Below, one piece after another: positions 13,522-27,112 of a stretch of 27,112 nucleotides of DNA. Location of the stretch: positions 1 through 27,112 of the forward strand of contig JAHBMJ010001703.1 of the NCBI GenBank assembly GCA_018398765.1, read 5' to 3'. Position numbers and translations under genes: made by a program. Each line of letters begins with the position of its first letter. Position 1 is the stretch's first letter. Source of the stretch: Chromera velia (taxonomy: Eukaryota > Sar > Chromeraceae). The notes under the pieces are model-generated. The model was not told the DNA's origin and did no database searches. It saw only the letters and a list, made by a program, of their open reading frames with translations.

Positions 13522-14445
13522 TCATTGAAACATGGAGTAACCAGGAAGATAGGGAAACATTTGCGGAGACGCCAAGAGTCTCTGCGACTGGGGGTCCCAC
13601 TCTCCGGGCTCCCCCCACCGCCACCGACGCTGTTGGCCTCCTTCGCCTTCCCCATTCTCCTTCTCTTCCTCTTCCTCCTCCTCCCCACCTCCCGCTTCCT
13701 CCAACAAATTTCTCTGAGAGGAACTCAGACCATCACATTCGGGCACAGAAAACACGGAACGTGCAACATCCTTCAACAAGGGGAGAGACACCCCCTCCCT
13801 TGTGAGGCACTCTTCTGAGTATTTGGTTTCCTTCAAAATCGTTTCAAGTGTGGACTCTTTGTGCACGGCAAAAAAGTCCAAAATCATTTCGTCAATCTTC
13901 CCCGCAAGCTCCTCACTGCTGCTCACAAGCACAGAAGAAGCCTGCCGGGCCTCTTTGACTTTCTCAGGGTCACTGAAGGCCAACAACGCCATCATGGCCT
14001 CCAATTTCGGCAACAGCCTCTTGTCTTTCCTCACTGCATCTGCCAGGTGATTCTGTGCGAATTGAAGCGCACCCTGCACGTCTCCTGCAGTAATCAGATT
14101 CAGAAGTTCGTGCTGTCGGAGTTCAAATTTCAAATCTGGATTTTTCTCCAGAATGCCCGGGTCCAACTCATTCAACCCCGCCTCTGCGGCCTTCACATCT
14201 CCCTTCAACACAGCGTCCTTCACCACCTGCCTCTTCCTCAGGCTTGTCAAAGGAACGTCAGTTTGGATGTTCGCCTCGCGTGCGAACTCTAGGGCGGCGT
14301 CGTGATGCCCATACACGGTGAGGAAGTTAAGAATGGCGGCGTGGATGTCGTTCTCAAGTACCTCCATGCCTTGGAGACGCTTCAACCAGGCCGCACTGTC
14401 AAGGACCGGGTTTGGGGAACTCTCTAGGGAGTCTATGTCCATCAT
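13522..14445 (-). CDS. GID8: GID8-like LisH-CTLH-CRA subunit of the GID/CTLH E3 ubiquitin ligase
   Basis: The product is a 307-residue protein from one uninterrupted reverse-strand ORF. The ORF stays open upstream but only to non-ATG codons, so the start is ATG at 14443-14445 (MMDIDSLESS); the next codon is also ATG. Domains in order: a Trp-containing lead (AAWLKRLQ); a LisH motif at about 31-63 (NDIHAAILNFLTVYGHHDAA, EFAREANI); CTLH at about 68-128 (VLKGDVKAAEAGLNELDP, FELRQHELLNLI); and a CRA-like region at about 125-225 (GALQFAQNHLADAV, LEAMMALLAF). This matches Gid8/TWA1 throughout, including the KEST segment near 196-199. Gid8 is a scaffold subunit of the GID/CTLH ubiquitin ligase. Unlike the human protein (about 228 residues), it has a C-terminal extension with an acidic run (about 255-268) and a Trp/Arg/Pro-rich end. 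It is intronless within the CDS, whereas its neighbours have many introns. It is transcribed divergently from the TLDc gene. Confidence 0.9.
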   Translation of the reverse strand: MMDIDSLESSPNPVLDSAAWLKRLQGMEVLENDIHAAILNFLTVYGHHDAALEFAREANIQTDVPLTSLRKRQVVKDAVLKGDVKAAEAGLNELDPGILEKNPDLKFELRQHELLNLITAGDVQGALQFAQNHLADAVRKDKRLLPKLEAMMALLAFSDPEKVKEARQASSVLVSSSEELAGKIDEMILDFFAVHKESTLETILKETKYSEECLTREGVSLPLLKDVARSVFSVPECDGLSSSQRNLLEEAGGGEEEEEEEKENGEGEGGQQRRWRWGEPGEWDPQSQRLLASPQMFPYLPGYSMFQ

Positions 14446-15115
14446 GACTGGAGCTTTTTGCAGCAGTGGGAGAGGCCGGAAAAGAAAAGTCAAGGCAGTC
14501 AGCGATGACAAGAAGAGCGCGTGAAGTCAAATTGAACGGTTAGTTGGCAGACTGAATTTTGAGGATTTTCGGTTCCTTCTCCGTGGGGGTATGGGAATTG
14601 GATCTTGACTCACCTTCAGTCAAACCTGGTGAGCAATGCCTTTTGGATGCGTCTGCAAAGCTGGCAGTCGTCAAGTTTGGCATGTGACTGATTGTGACTG
14701 TCACTGACTGAATGATTGTCAGAACGTAGAGTCAGGCTGTCATGCACAGCCATTCACAGCCGTGAGAGAGATTCGATGTTGCCATGCACTTTTTTTGTCA
14801 TTTTTTGTGTATGCATGCAGCTAGGAACGCGCGAGATAATCATCGCGAAAGTTCGTCACCCGTCTACTTAAGAATTCGAACATCTTCGAACATCCTCTTC
14901 TTCGATCATCTTCGACCCACTTTCAATGAACGATCTTCCCACACCAGTTCGATAGATCCTGTCGATGCCCGAGAATGACTGTTAGAGGTCCTCTATCCTT
15001 CTTCGTGTCCAAAGAGTGTACGTACCTGCAGTTCGGATGTGCGCAGGGCAAATTTTGGATCTTCCTCCACAGTATCAGTCTGCTTCAATTTTGTGTGGCA
15101 CTTGATTGAGAGCCG
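14446..15115. promoter_or_regulatory. Divergent intergenic region between the GID8-like and TLDc genes
   Basis: About 670 bp separate the two start codons, so this interval should hold both promoters and 5' UTRs. It contains ATGCATGCAG at 14812-14821 and repeats of TCTTCGA-type words near 14878-14915. ATGCATGC resembles the TGCATGCA sites bound by an apicomplexan ApiAP2 factor, but the same string is also a typical splice acceptor in this window. No TATA box can be assigned with confidence. Confidence 0.45.
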
Positions 15116-22339: not shown

Positions 22340-25300
22340 TTATGGCGGTGCGCGTCCGTGCCCCTCCTTCCTTCTCTCCCCGTCAGCTGAGAAGCTCCGG
22401 AGAGCTTTGGACAACTTCACATCTTCGTCCAGCTGCCGAGCCACGTCGAGACAGGAGGACTCCCACCAGTGGTAATCAGGTTCGTGGTCTCCTGCGATCT
22501 CGACGAATTCTGCATGCAATTGATTGACCGTTGCAAGGGTGATGCATCTGTATGCATTCATTCGCACAAAGACAATACGTGGGTACGTGAATGCATTGGC
22601 ACATATGTTGAAACCCACGTGTATGCACATTGCAGAGAAATAGCAGGGTTCAAAATCCGTATACATTCTGCGGGCTGGAGGAAACAGACAGAGCAAGGTA
22701 GAAAAAAGGCCAGAGAGAGAACAGAGAAGGAGAGAGAGAGAGAGAGAGAGAGAGGTCTGCAAAAAGAAAGGAGGGAGGAAGGAACTCCTGCATACAGCCA
22801 AGAAAGAAATGTGATTATCGGAAAGCTGCCCCAGGCAATTAAGGGCCAGACATCGTTGTCCCTGAAGAGAATGCCTAAGTTCATCTGAATTGACTGACCG
22901 TGTTGGATTCCCATTTCAGTGAGGAACCCTTTCCATGCCGACATGTAGCCGTAGGGGATCAGCTGCGAGCATGGCAAGAACGAGGAATTTCAGCGTTGAG
23001 ACAGTACAGAATTACCTGACTTTATTTTTCTCATGCTTGTTCACGTGATAGGGAAGAACTTTGAACATCCGAAATAAACGAGTTGAAAACACACTGGCAT
23101 GCGGGGAGGAAAGGTGAACAGAGAAAAATGGAATCAAAGATCCAGGAAAGGAGGAATCACACGAAAGAAACAATGTGCTTCAAGGAAACGAGGAAAGAAA
23201 CGACAAAGAGAACGGGAAGGGCCTCTGAGCACTGTCTTTGACAATATTTTGTTCTGAACATTTACTGATTCACACATGGGCGGGCACTCACCGTGTCATG
23301 TACAGAGACGCCAAACACCATACGCATTCGTCTGAGTCCCGCTGTCCGGTCCCGCGAGGCTCCCCGGATTGTCTGCCTCATCGTCTCTCGCTGACACAGG
23401 GGTGCACCCCAGATCTCTGCATGCATATCGATACAGAAATTAATTGGGATTACAATGTACGACGCAGAGAAATTAATTCAGAGGGGACCTAGGGCTTCGC
23501 TGTTGTTTGTACGTTTTCTTTCTACCTGACTGCATGCCTTGCTCCTTCCTTGACCCGAGATAATGGACAGCCAATCATTTAGAGTTTGGATGCGACGCGT
23601 TGTAGAGAATTGATAGATACAAAGCAGCCACAAGAGGAATGGAACGATAAGCGTCCTTTTAGGTACGTGTTCCCTTCATCTGCATCTCCAGCAGGGTGGG
23701 GTGGCCAGGAGAAAAGAAGATCGGTCAGAGCGACGAAGATCTAAGCCAATATTCATTTCCTTCCGTCCAGCGGACAGACAGACGTGTCATTCTGGGAGGT
23801 CGTTTCATGTTGATGGCGACATCGAAGGCTACAGTAGCGCCTGCATTTATTCAGTCAAGAAGAATTCAATTGTCTGCTTCTGGCAGAGGCACTTTTTTGC
23901 AAATCGTTCCAGGATTTTTCATTCCTCTTTCTTTGCAAAACTCCTGTCGCGAGGCGGAGAGACAGGTCGATCGAACAAGTAGCAAGATCAAAGAGGGGGT
24001 CCAGTTCAACAAAAGCTGAAGGACCAAATAGAGACAATCAGACACAATAAAGAGAGCGACAGAGAAAACAGGCCGAGAGACTGACAGGGAGAGACAAAGA
24101 CAGAGAGACAGAGAGACAGCGAAAAAGCGAAAGACAGGCCCAAGGTGCAGTGTGCGTCACCGAGGAGGGTGTCGAAGAGGCATATTGGCCTCACGTTGAG
24201 AGGTGCCAGTGACTGAATGTCTTTTTGTGTGTATATACACCTAGCTAAATATGTCAGTAAACGACCTCACCTTGAGAAAGGCCGCTGAGTGCGACTGCGT
24301 CGGGTCCAATTTTGAATTTGTCCATGGCTGCTTCCACGCACCCGACCGTCTTTGCCAGCTGCTCCGGCCAGTCTGCACATATAATGAAGAGGAAAAAAGC
24401 GTCCCACCAACTGATTGATCGCCAATGGAATTTCTCATGCCCATTTCGTCATTGGGAGTCTTCAGGGCAAAACGAATGTCCACTACACTGCATCGAACAT
24501 ATGTAGTTTATGGTACAGTAGAAAGAGTGGTGCTGTACGATGAACCTATCGCCTTTCTGTGTCCGTCGAAGGGATGGAGAGATCCCACGTGCATTCAGTT
24601 AATGCCTATGCTTGGCGGTCAAACTTTTAGTACTCAGTGACCAGAAAAGCGTATCATGAGACAGCATCCTCATTTATTGGCATTTCCCTCACGCACCTTC
24701 GAATTCCATTGTGTGCACCCTGTCTGCCCCCTGGAAGTGCATCATGATCTCCCGCAGCTCCAAAATCTTGGCATAGAACCAAAAACAGAATGTTTTCGGG
24801 TCGATGTAATGTTGAGGAGCGCGAGGCACAATCATCGCCAAATTCAGTCCGATCTTGCTCGCGGCTGCGACGTGGGTCACTGAGAAGAAAAAAACAAGAG
24901 AAGAAAAGAGAAGGGAACATGCATGAACACCAGAGCCGACTTCGGTAAAATCCAGTCTTGCAACTGAATGCGATCATAATGCCTGCTAAATCGCCATGCA
25001 TATCCCTGGGAGGGGAGCAAGAGAATACGGCGCAGACCGAAAAGAAAGGACCACAAGAAGTGATCGTTGCAACACAGGATGCTTCACGGCCAGAGTCTCC
25101 AGTGAAGGAGCTAAAGAGGGTGTCGGGGTGTCAGCACTTCGGGAAGAACGAAACATATAGAGCCAGGCAAGGACGCTACAATTTGTGCATGTCATGAACA
25201 TGGGACATACACACTCGTCAAAAAAAGCTTTTCACGCTGCCCGCCTGTCTATCTCCCTGTCTCCCTGTCTCCCTGAGTGACTCACTGACTCCATTTGGGT

Positions 25301-27112
25301 TTGGTGCTATTCGGATCCATCAGAAATCCGTGGAAGAAGAAAGCTGCAAAGGGAGATGCGGAGCACAGACAAATCTCGAAGACTGTCGAAAAATGTTGCA
25401 CACATCATTTTCAGCCTACACAAAGCGGACGCTCGCATGATGTATGAAAAAATGAGGCAGACAATGGGGCAAACAAACATTTAGCAGTATACCACAGGAG
25501 GGCCTCTACCGATGAATATGGTTCATTTGCTGAGACAAATATGAGTTCCATCCAGATGAAAAAATTGGGCACGTCTTCATAGAATTGCAAAGTGAGCTAG
25601 TAGATGAGAGAGGCGGAATAATTGACAGACGCACAGAAAGGCAGGTTTGGAGGGACAGGCAAATGGAAAGCGAAGATGCAAAAAGACAAAAAAACACATG
25701 AAAGGTCTCCTAGCTGTTCACTTACCCACCCAGTGCATCCGGTTTTCCTGTTCCCGTCTTTGCGACCAGACAGTCCAGTTCTCCAAACTTTTCCCACTCG
25801 AAAGTGACGGTTGCGCCCTCTGCCAGGGGAGGCAGAGGTTGTTTGACGTTCAACTCGTGGAACTTCCAGGCGGCCTCACAGAGAACAGCGGGAGATCCCA
25901 AATTCCCAGTCGAGAGGTTTGCGTCGGCGCTTGCTGCCGCTTTCTTCTGTTTCCCTGTCTCCTTTTTTGACGAGGGCTCTGTTTGATTGGTTTTCTTTCC
26001 GACTTCCTCTGTGAGGGCACCAACGAGGGACTCTACAGTCGGGAACTCTGCAAGGAAATTGGAGGACAAGGGAACGCCAAGTTCCTCCTTGATGAAAGTT
26101 CGCAACTCCACAGCACCCAGGGAATCGATCCCCATCTCCCTCAGAGACGTGGATCCCTCAACATCCTCTATGCCAAGCACAGAACTGAGTGCTCTCTTCA
26201 CAACACCCAGAATGCTCTGGGGAGAAGATTCACTGCCCTGACCTTCTTTTCCTCTATTTCTCCCACCACTTCCCCTCAGGCTTCTGTAGTGCTGAGTTTG
26301 TCTCTTTGCCTCCATTCCTTGGACGAGACTGGAGACGGAAGAAGCGGGTGCGTCCCTGCAGATCAACCGGACGCCCTCCATTCGACAGACACACGCAGAG
26401 TTGCCCTCTTCAGAAGTCATCAAATCGACGTCAACTACAGCAGACGAGAAATCTGATTCAACCGAATGAACTCTCACATGGGCCCATGTGGGCTTCACAG
26501 AACTGTCGGCAGATCTTGTTGCAGGGTCGAGAGAAACAGCCAGCGAATCCGCAGTCAACGAGACGAGAGACTTGCCCTCCAGCTCTGGAACGGAGGTAAC
26601 AAGAGCGGCAGCAGCCGACTGAAAGGCACCGTCGAGGACTGACGGATGCAACCAATAGGCCCTGTTAACCTCCGACAGGAAGCTCGGCTCTGCTTTCTCA
26701 TTCTCTCCTTGCGTGCTCTGTACCTGCAGCTTTGCGAGCACTTCCCGCTCCCCCAAGAACACCTCGCAGATCGTCCGAAAACGATCGCCGTACTGAATCC
26801 CTGCTGAGGCAAAGCGGGCGTACAACGATTTCACATACTCAGTCTCGGCCTTCGTCATTTTGCCCTGGAGCGAAGCAACGCTCTCCACCCTCCCAAGCTC
26901 AGCAGCCTCTCCCACTCCACAGCTCAGGTGCACCCTCTCTCCGGTGGAGTCCGACGTCAGCAGCTCGGCCTCCCCATCGGCAGACAGCGACACCCGAAGC
27001 TTGGTGGCCAAGGCTCTCTTTCTATCCGCAGGGACTATCAGAGGCTCTTGAATGACCACGTCCTGTAGAGCCACCACCGATGGAGAGGCCTTCTCTTGGC
27101 CTTCGCACTCCT
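22340..27112 (-). CDS. Type I polyketide synthase, C-terminal part: DH - ACP - LYPLA-like alpha/beta hydrolase
   Basis: Reverse-strand exons in coding order: 27112 (window edge)-25730, 25343-25290, 24879-24697, 24372-24271, 23840-23784, 23416-23292, 22962-22899 and 22509-22340 (stop TAA 22342-22340). All junctions keep frame, giving about 711 visible residues; the N-terminal modules lie beyond the edge. A dehydratase-type double hotdog comes first: LQDVVIQEPLIVP, then GIQYGDRFRTI and YWLHPSVLDGAFQ with the expected Asp at 26631-26633. The ACP follows directly (LREMGIDSLGAVELRTFI; phosphopantetheine Ser codon 26121-26123), with no ketoreductase between. After a Lys/Ala linker comes a hydrolase: oxyanion FFFHGF, IVPRAPQHYIDPKTFCFWF, nucleophile elbow ALSGLSQGA (Ser codon 24275-24277), acid in SVHDTLIP (Asp codon 23295-23297), and a His in AGDHEPDYHWW. 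This pattern and spacing match acyl-protein thioesterase/carboxylesterase (Abhydrolase_2, LYPLA). It probably releases the chain from the ACP. Substrate and product are unknown. Confidence 0.87.
22730..22754 (+). repeat. (GA)n microsatellite in the last PKS intron
   Basis: About 12 AG units lie in the reverse-strand intron between exons 22962-22899 and 22509-22340. They appear as a CT-rich run on the transcribed strand upstream of the GCATGCAG acceptor. Confidence 0.85.

Follow-up and report, generated by a model that had tools for sequence, protein, structure and literature searches.

A Type I Polyketide Synthase of Chromera velia Predicted to End in a Diverged LYPLA/Abhydrolase_2-Like Serine Hydrolase

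The Locus and the Predicted Gene

Here we describe the 3′ end of a predicted type I polyketide synthase (PKS) gene of Chromera velia, in which the last acyl carrier protein (ACP) appears to be followed, in the same polypeptide, by an alpha/beta hydrolase. The window, i.e., the whole stretch of DNA that was analysed, is contig JAHBMJ010001703.1 (27,112 nucleotides, nt) and constitutes the whole of contig C1701 in the genome in which we searched the species' own DNA (177.8 Mb in 4040 contigs). The gene model lies on the minus strand and consists of a large first exon and seven small ones (Table 1), with a stop codon at 22342-22340. All seven introns are GT-AG, the joined length is divisible by three and the terminal TAA is the sole stop. 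An earlier note on this DNA had proposed that seven small exons join in frame at 22340..25730, and the gene model returns the same coordinates; it had placed the hydrolase downstream of the ACP, and the domain begins a little earlier, inside the ACP exon.

The fusion can be followed within a single exon. Exon 1 carries Pfam matches to PS-DH (75.7 bits) and PP-binding (49 bits), both above cut-off, then a linker that is kept in a paralogue on contig C3962, and finally the first strands of the hydrolase (GELDCLVAKTGTGKPDAL), which start at residue 443 of its 460 whole codons. The Pfam match to the tail begins at residue 14 of the segment starting with GELDCLVAKTGTGKPDAL, that is, still in exon 1. 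PKS dehydratase (DH) and ACP thus share one exon with the start of the hydrolase, the arrangement by which we assign the gene to the type I PKSs.

A model drawn from genomic DNA alone can be wrong, and a separate downstream hydrolase gene might have been mistakenly joined to the PKS. We consider this most improbable and rejected it, because the ACP exon contains both the first hydrolase strands and a phase-1 donor, and because a PKS exon is joined at the equivalent splice point in the paralogues on C3755 and C3962. Moreover, the open frame of exon 2 contains no ATG upstream of the HG motif (21 codons upstream), so that no separate start of the tail can be seen. An additional exon at 23658-23578, between exons 5 and 6, was rejected as well, since these two exons join in frame and their product aligns gap-free with that of C3755.

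The tail is an alpha/beta hydrolase sequence with the motifs HG, GLSQG, HDTLIP and GDHEP, as had been read there before, the C-terminal His included. When it was aligned by hhalign with a set of LYPLA sequences (described below), the window Ser, Asp and His faced those of APT1 (GFSQGG, CDPLVP and MMHSS); in a MAFFT alignment of the same rows Ser and Asp were matched and His was not. In kind and order these are the LYPLA motifs (HG, Ser in GxSQG, Asp in D-x-x-x-P and a His near the C-terminus), and the window copy has all of them. The spacing, which the earlier note had also ascribed to LYPLA enzymes, is near that of human APT1 but not equal to it, the first two distances being longer in the window (HG to Ser, 107 vs 91; Ser to Asp, 61 vs 55; Asp to His, 31 vs 34). 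Furthermore, LYPLA proteins are free enzymes, whereas the window tail constitutes the C-terminal domain of a PKS, the gene model containing no further domain between hydrolase and stop.

Table 1. Exons of the predicted PKS-hydrolase gene in the window
Feature	Position (strand)	Length (nt)	Content
Exon 1	25730..27110 (-)		C-terminal part of PKS dehydratase, ACP (GIDSLGAVELR), linker EAAWKFHELNVKQPLPPLAEG, first strands of hydrolase GELDCLVAKTGTGKPDAL; 5′ end beyond contig
Exon 2	25290..25343 (-)	54	Oxyanion-hole strand FFFHGFLMDP; GT-AG, phase 1 on both sides
Exon 3	24697..24879 (-)	183	Segment THVAAASKIGLNLAMIVPRAP...
Exon 4	24271..24372 (-)	102	Helix and nucleophile elbow ALSGLSQ(G), predicted catalytic Ser
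Exon 5	23784..23840 (-)	57	(G)ATVAFDVAINMKRPPRMT
Exon 6	23292..23416 (-)	125	IWGAPLCQRETMR...MRMVFGVSVHDT, predicted catalytic Asp
Exon 7	22899..22962 (-)	64	LIPYGYMSAWKGFLTEMGIQH
Exon 8	22340..22509 (-)	170, including TAA	EFVEIAGDHEPDYHWWES..., predicted catalytic His, charged C-terminus

Paralogous Tails in the Same Genome

Two further synthases carry a related tail. The PKS on C3755, found by reading downstream of its ketosynthase (KS) exons, runs into DAWENIGGLDCLVTSNGKDPQALG, which is near the corresponding segment of the window. A complete homologue of the tail could be spliced from this contig's own sequence (BLASTP E = 9e-39; 82 of 278 positions identical to the window). Homology to the window and GT/AG guided the choice of its exon ends, which was not blind; with this choice the exon phases equal those of the window (1,1,1,1,1,0,1), as do five of the six internal exon lengths (54, 102, 57, 125 and 64 nt). 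Only the third differs, with 183 nt in the window against 246 nt in the C3755 model; in C3755 this exon (exon c) offers seven in-frame GT donors, and the 246-nt choice is based on the flanking sequence.

The paralogue on C3962 came to light when exon 1 was used as query (40% identity, residues 276-461), and its exon ends were chosen in the same way. A terminal part of a ketoreductase (KR; 76.6 bits) and an ACP (43.2 bits) are encoded there, followed by the linker EAALRFHEVMEAIPLPPLASG, to be compared with EAAWKFHELNVKQPLPPLAEG in the window. Its exons 2 and 3 are of 54 and 183 nt, so that both visible internal exons have the window's lengths, and exon 2 is equally long in all three genes; 39 of 102 positions are identical to the window and 36 of 82 to C3755. 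The remainder is hidden by a run of exactly 2500 N (L068 2501-5000), where exons 4-8 are expected, and the triad part is therefore not visible. Taken together, the exon phases and lengths shared with paralogues that are themselves joined to a PKS indicate, as far as can be judged from gene structure, that the tail is more than a chance arrangement.

When the genome was searched in six frames with the two tails of window and C3755, and with the start of C3962, no further copies came up. With the window tail, all eight matches corresponded to its own locus and both paralogues were missed; as small, diverged exons can escape such an exon-by-exon search, three copies constitute a lower bound. The three synthases differ in the last domains before the tail, which are DH-ACP in the window, KR-ACP in C3962 and KS-KR with no recognisable ACP in C3755. 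The C3755 KS matches Ketoacyl-synt_C at 79.8 bits and shows, by eye, the Cys motif and the two His motifs (TVDSACSSS, QCHGAG and FGHQGA). Two pieces of its KR exceed the Pfam cut-off (33.8 and 24.8 vs 22.6 bits), and the domain looks degenerate from its NADP and Tyr motifs as read by eye; PP-binding found no match in either of the exons scanned.

In the C3755 tail the whole triad has been replaced, with Thr in the place of Ser (GATQG), Ser in that of Asp (FSKDVP vs HDTLIP) and Cys in that of His (ADCLPN vs GDHEPD). This Thr, or an Asp two positions on, may act as an alternative catalytic residue. Over 117 ungapped codons, C3755 and the window differ by 0.68 nonsynonymous substitutions per site (dN) and 2.36 synonymous ones (dS, near saturation), which, along with the open exons, argues for a protein under constraint, in a comparison of two sequences that cannot assign it to a branch.

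These data bear on the idea that the tail is not an off-loading enzyme at all, and would be rather an editing domain or a non-catalytic terminus, such as a dock, a gate or a scaffold. In the C3755 gene the domain survives, its exons open and five of the six internal lengths equal to those of the window, although Ser, Asp and His have become Thr, Ser and Cys, so that some copies may serve something beyond the usual catalysis. For the window copy, however, we regard this as unlikely, because it retains the HG motif and the triad residues in the order known from LYPLA and is followed by no other domain before the stop.

Upstream of the C3755 KS lies a 738-residue open frame (L067; C3755:9044-12500, minus strand) with an IGHSQGVV motif, similar by eye to a starter-unit acyltransferase; the minus strand of this contig lies in L035 and L058.

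Family Placement of the Tail

The best Pfam match of the window tail is Abhydrolase_2 (PF02230), with sub-threshold scores of 19.2 bits, 18.4 bits with a longer upstream part and 19.7 bits in a shorter version. The alignment is near full-length (profile positions 12-200 of 217), and the family ranks first of the two found at E up to 10, the second being Abhydrolase_3 (13.3 bits); the longer version of the tail also draws an unrelated CusF match (E = 0.08). For the C3755 tail, Abhydrolase_2 is the sole match at E up to 0.1, with 14.4 bits and no single stretch passing. Even with E allowed up to 10, neither Thioesterase (PF00975) nor NAD_binding_4 (PF07993) was listed for this tail. As the earlier note had held, the tail thus matches neither the classical PKS thioesterase nor the terminal reductase profile, and the profile search did not place it in the ordinary thioesterase family; a terminal reductase was rejected on this ground.

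Small sets of sequences were then compared as profiles. The LYPLA set contained 10 sequences, namely human APT1, eight plasmid-borne proteins (chosen among 20 listed matches) and Escherichia coli YpfH, and some of its rows, though found with APT1, are labelled dienelactone hydrolase family or prolyl oligopeptidase family. The thioesterase (TE) set contained six sequences (from EntF), and the BioH and dienelactone hydrolase (DLH) sets five each, of which five, four and four, respectively, were chosen among 12 listed matches per set. The LYPLA profile scored 16.9 bits with the window tail, 12.5 with C3755 and 8.8 with C3962, values reached by none of 2000 shuffles of each tail (best shuffles, 5.7, 5.4 and 6.9). 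With the TE, BioH and DLH profiles the window tail scored 3.7, 4.7 and 0 bits, equalled by 5, 5 and 87 of 2000 shuffles; the C3755 tail scored only with BioH (0.7 bits, equalled by 24 of 2000) and not with TE or DLH. In turn, hhalign of the Chromera alignment against the LYPLA set gave 95.6% with two rows and 96.4-96.9% with three, over 195-201 columns, at about 15% identity in the aligned columns; the other sets gave 0.3-1.0% (TE), 2.2-6.2% (BioH) and 0.1-0.2% (DLH).

A classical type I PKS thioesterase of the PF00975 family that has diverged beyond recognition would share the fold class and the place behind the last ACP. In this genome PF00975 is indeed matched on C3434 and C1305, on the same strand downstream of KS exons, and the TE profile score of the window tail was equalled by few shuffles. 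Such an origin is nevertheless very unlikely and was rejected, given that the family goes unlisted in Pfam even at permissive E and that hhalign assigns the TE set at most 1.0%, against more than 95% for LYPLA.

From this sequence comparison, the window tail is a diverged relative of the LYPLA/Abhydrolase_2 family and not a clear Abhydrolase_2 member. The identity claimed by the earlier note stands with respect to the top Pfam match and to hhalign, not with respect to the family cut-off; as this is missed, and an acyl-protein thioesterase activity would be a prediction from sequence, we file the tail neither as a Pfam Abhydrolase_2 member nor as an acyl-protein thioesterase.

Relatives outside the three synthases are scarce. 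A PF02230 search of the Chromera genome gave one match, on C1022, in an 875-residue frame that by eye resembles a polyhydroxybutyrate (PHB)-depolymerase-type esterase with no PKS domain. Neither tblastn of the tail against plasmids nor a pattern scan of viral contigs gave anything useful, and a scan of the genome contigs of our collection with the two-row alignment returned 103 stretches, none confirmed. With a three-row N-terminal alignment, 2 of 162 stretches were confirmed, both in alphaproteobacterial metagenome-assembled genomes (L094 and L095), whose genes are identical to each other at 218 of 226 positions. The L094 gene (4956-5633) encodes a phospholipase/carboxylesterase of 225 residues (Abhydrolase_2, 128.2 bits) that aligns pairwise with the window tail at E = 3e-9 (41 of 159 identical), its GGKPDALVVFLHGY resembling the window's GTGKPDALAFFFHGF; unlike the tail it is free-standing, and no PKS was recognised by eye among the open reading frames around it, of which no family search was made. 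The depalmitoylase-like origin that had been suggested is therefore sound as regards the family relation and overstated as a label, since the only confirmed relatives in the collection are these two genes, the one scanned being a phospholipase/carboxylesterase, and the data point no more to depalmitoylases than to the other carboxylesterases of the family.

A Proposed Hydrolytic Release Domain

We propose, with a probability of about 0.7, that the window contains the 3′ end of a type I PKS whose last ACP is followed by a serine hydrolase of diverged LYPLA/Abhydrolase_2 lineage, which would hydrolyse the finished chain off the synthase. The finished acyl chain, held on the ACP as a phosphopantetheine thioester, would be transferred to the GLSQG serine, which the GDHEP histidine and the HDTLIP aspartate would activate while the HG motif formed the oxyanion hole, and water would cleave the acyl-Ser intermediate to give a free acid. 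As the family already acts on long-chain thioesters of proteins, the enzyme would need little change to accept an ACP substrate. This is the simplest reading of a copy that keeps the hydrolase residues, follows the last ACP and precedes no other domain. What the DNA itself shows is that the parts are fused in frame, how the exons are arranged, to which family the tail is related, where the triad lies, that one full and one partial paralogous tail exist, and that the triad is replaced in C3755. That the exons are spliced in vivo, and that the domain is active, hydrolyses the chain instead of transferring it and gives the product named, we infer.

Several points weigh against this proposal. The contig ends inside the DH, so that the 5′ part of the gene is absent from it and a KS is deduced from the DH-ACP context; among seven PKS contig ends read by eye (C409, C781, C2410, C1319, C3834, C3755 and C1753, the last with no frame of at least 150 residues), none was seen ending inside a DH. 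Neither the window tail nor that of C3755 reaches the curated Abhydrolase_2 cut-off of 23 bits, and NCBIfam lists no family for the tail at E up to 10. A sequence search of PDB with the single tail found nothing significant, only a monooxygenase at E = 0.68, and with a two-row profile only the elbow of the esterase LC-Est1C, at E = 0.76. Moreover, the replaced triad of C3755 indicates that the domain can persist without the usual catalytic residues.

Serine hydrolases are able to transfer as well as to hydrolyse. The acyl-enzyme could be resolved by an alcohol, a sterol, a glycerol or a protein side chain in place of water, giving an ester or a lipidated acceptor, and sub-threshold Condensation matches do occur after the ACP on the PKS contigs C133 and C1549. 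We find such an acyltransferase-like terminus improbable for the window, where no acceptor-binding feature was recognised; nor is any of the relatives found annotated as an acyltransferase.

A broader scenario is put forward tentatively, as one we would not expect to hold. A LYPLA-type hydrolase would have been recruited as the terminal module of at least three Chromera synthases, and the copy on C3755, its triad replaced and its exons kept, would by now have lost hydrolysis and serve as a terminus for receiving, gating or handing over the chain, release and transfer having thus arisen from one depalmitoylase-like module within one genome.

As judged from its motifs, the chemistry of hydrolytic release by the window tail would be that of the classical PKS thioesterase, and the difference lies in the lineage of the enzyme and in the contrast with reductive release. 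PF00975 thioesterases, which in type I PKSs and nonribosomal peptide synthetases occupy the same place after the last carrier protein, are serine hydrolases acting through an acyl-enzyme; the window tail differs from them in its profile relations. The earlier note had spoken of a different off-loading chemistry, which does not hold for a Ser-His-Asp hydrolase with this shared acyl-enzyme route: the off-loading differs only from reductive release.

Other systems present partial likenesses. For the algal PKS domain IPR027417, its authors suggest a role in product release or transfer; this domain, a P-loop family, is not an alpha/beta hydrolase. Toxoplasma TgPKS2 ends in a KS and a thioester reductase. 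In Cryptosporidium, both CpFAS1 and CpPKS1 are described as ending in a reductase, with reductive release (PMC6568194). They resemble the window gene in the terminal off-loading position within an alveolate megasynthase, and differ from it in that the window tail has no NAD_binding_4 match. The thioesterase LovG, placed in the FSH1-like family, represents a release enzyme from outside the usual fused PKS thioesterases. In fungi it is described as a separate protein, with no ACP fusion, that frees the product of LovB (PMC7870829).

Chromerid genomes are reported to encode numerous type I PKSs whose modules are for the most part fully reducing, and the passages of that report on these PKSs contain nothing on release domains (PMC7073580). 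Another study on C. velia PKSs (PMC7464705) mentions neither a thioesterase nor a hydrolase in its main text, figures and supplements aside. By title and start of abstract, none of the open-access papers listed in our literature searches describes this ACP-hydrolase fusion, which is weak evidence, figures, supplements and most subscription journals lying outside its scope.

For giant alveolate PKSs, the work available to us describes reductive release, in Cryptosporidium (PMC6568194). A chain set free as an acid, and not as an alcohol or aldehyde, would alter the range of possible long-chain products. It would also be suggested that depalmitoylase-like enzymes could become release domains of megasynthases, because both cleave long-chain thioesters held on a protein. 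In C3755, with its replaced triad, the genome offers a ready comparison for the need of the domain in release.

Other Endings and Minor Observations

Chromera appears to use several PKS endings, namely reductase-like, PF00975 thioesterase, condensation-like and LYPLA-like hydrolase. NAD_binding_4 matches occur on C3391, C608, C727 and C819, and those to PF00975 on the two contigs named above, all on the same strand downstream of KS, as candidate parts of the same genes. The minus strand of C3434 carries, in this order, weak matches to Patched (28.2 and 27.7 bits against a cut-off of 23), exons for KS and the PF00975 match. Two PKSs with a fused AcrB-like or sterol-sensing domain have been described from C. 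velia (PMC7464705), and the order on C3434 fits them.

The Condensation matches found after an ACP score 22.9 bits on C133 (L062 2493-4028) and 29.3 bits on C1549 (L065 7209-8279), the cut-off being 30.6; a similar stretch follows the ACP, by eye, in L061 (C612), with an HHVIAGQ-like motif, and in L063 (C3849). From these matches and motifs, such stretches are possibly an acyltransferase or condensation-type ending.

Elsewhere in the window, an open frame on the minus strand (13522-14526) matches CTLH at 76.9 bits and LisH below threshold; it presumably encodes a LisH-CTLH protein like those of GID/CTLH complexes.

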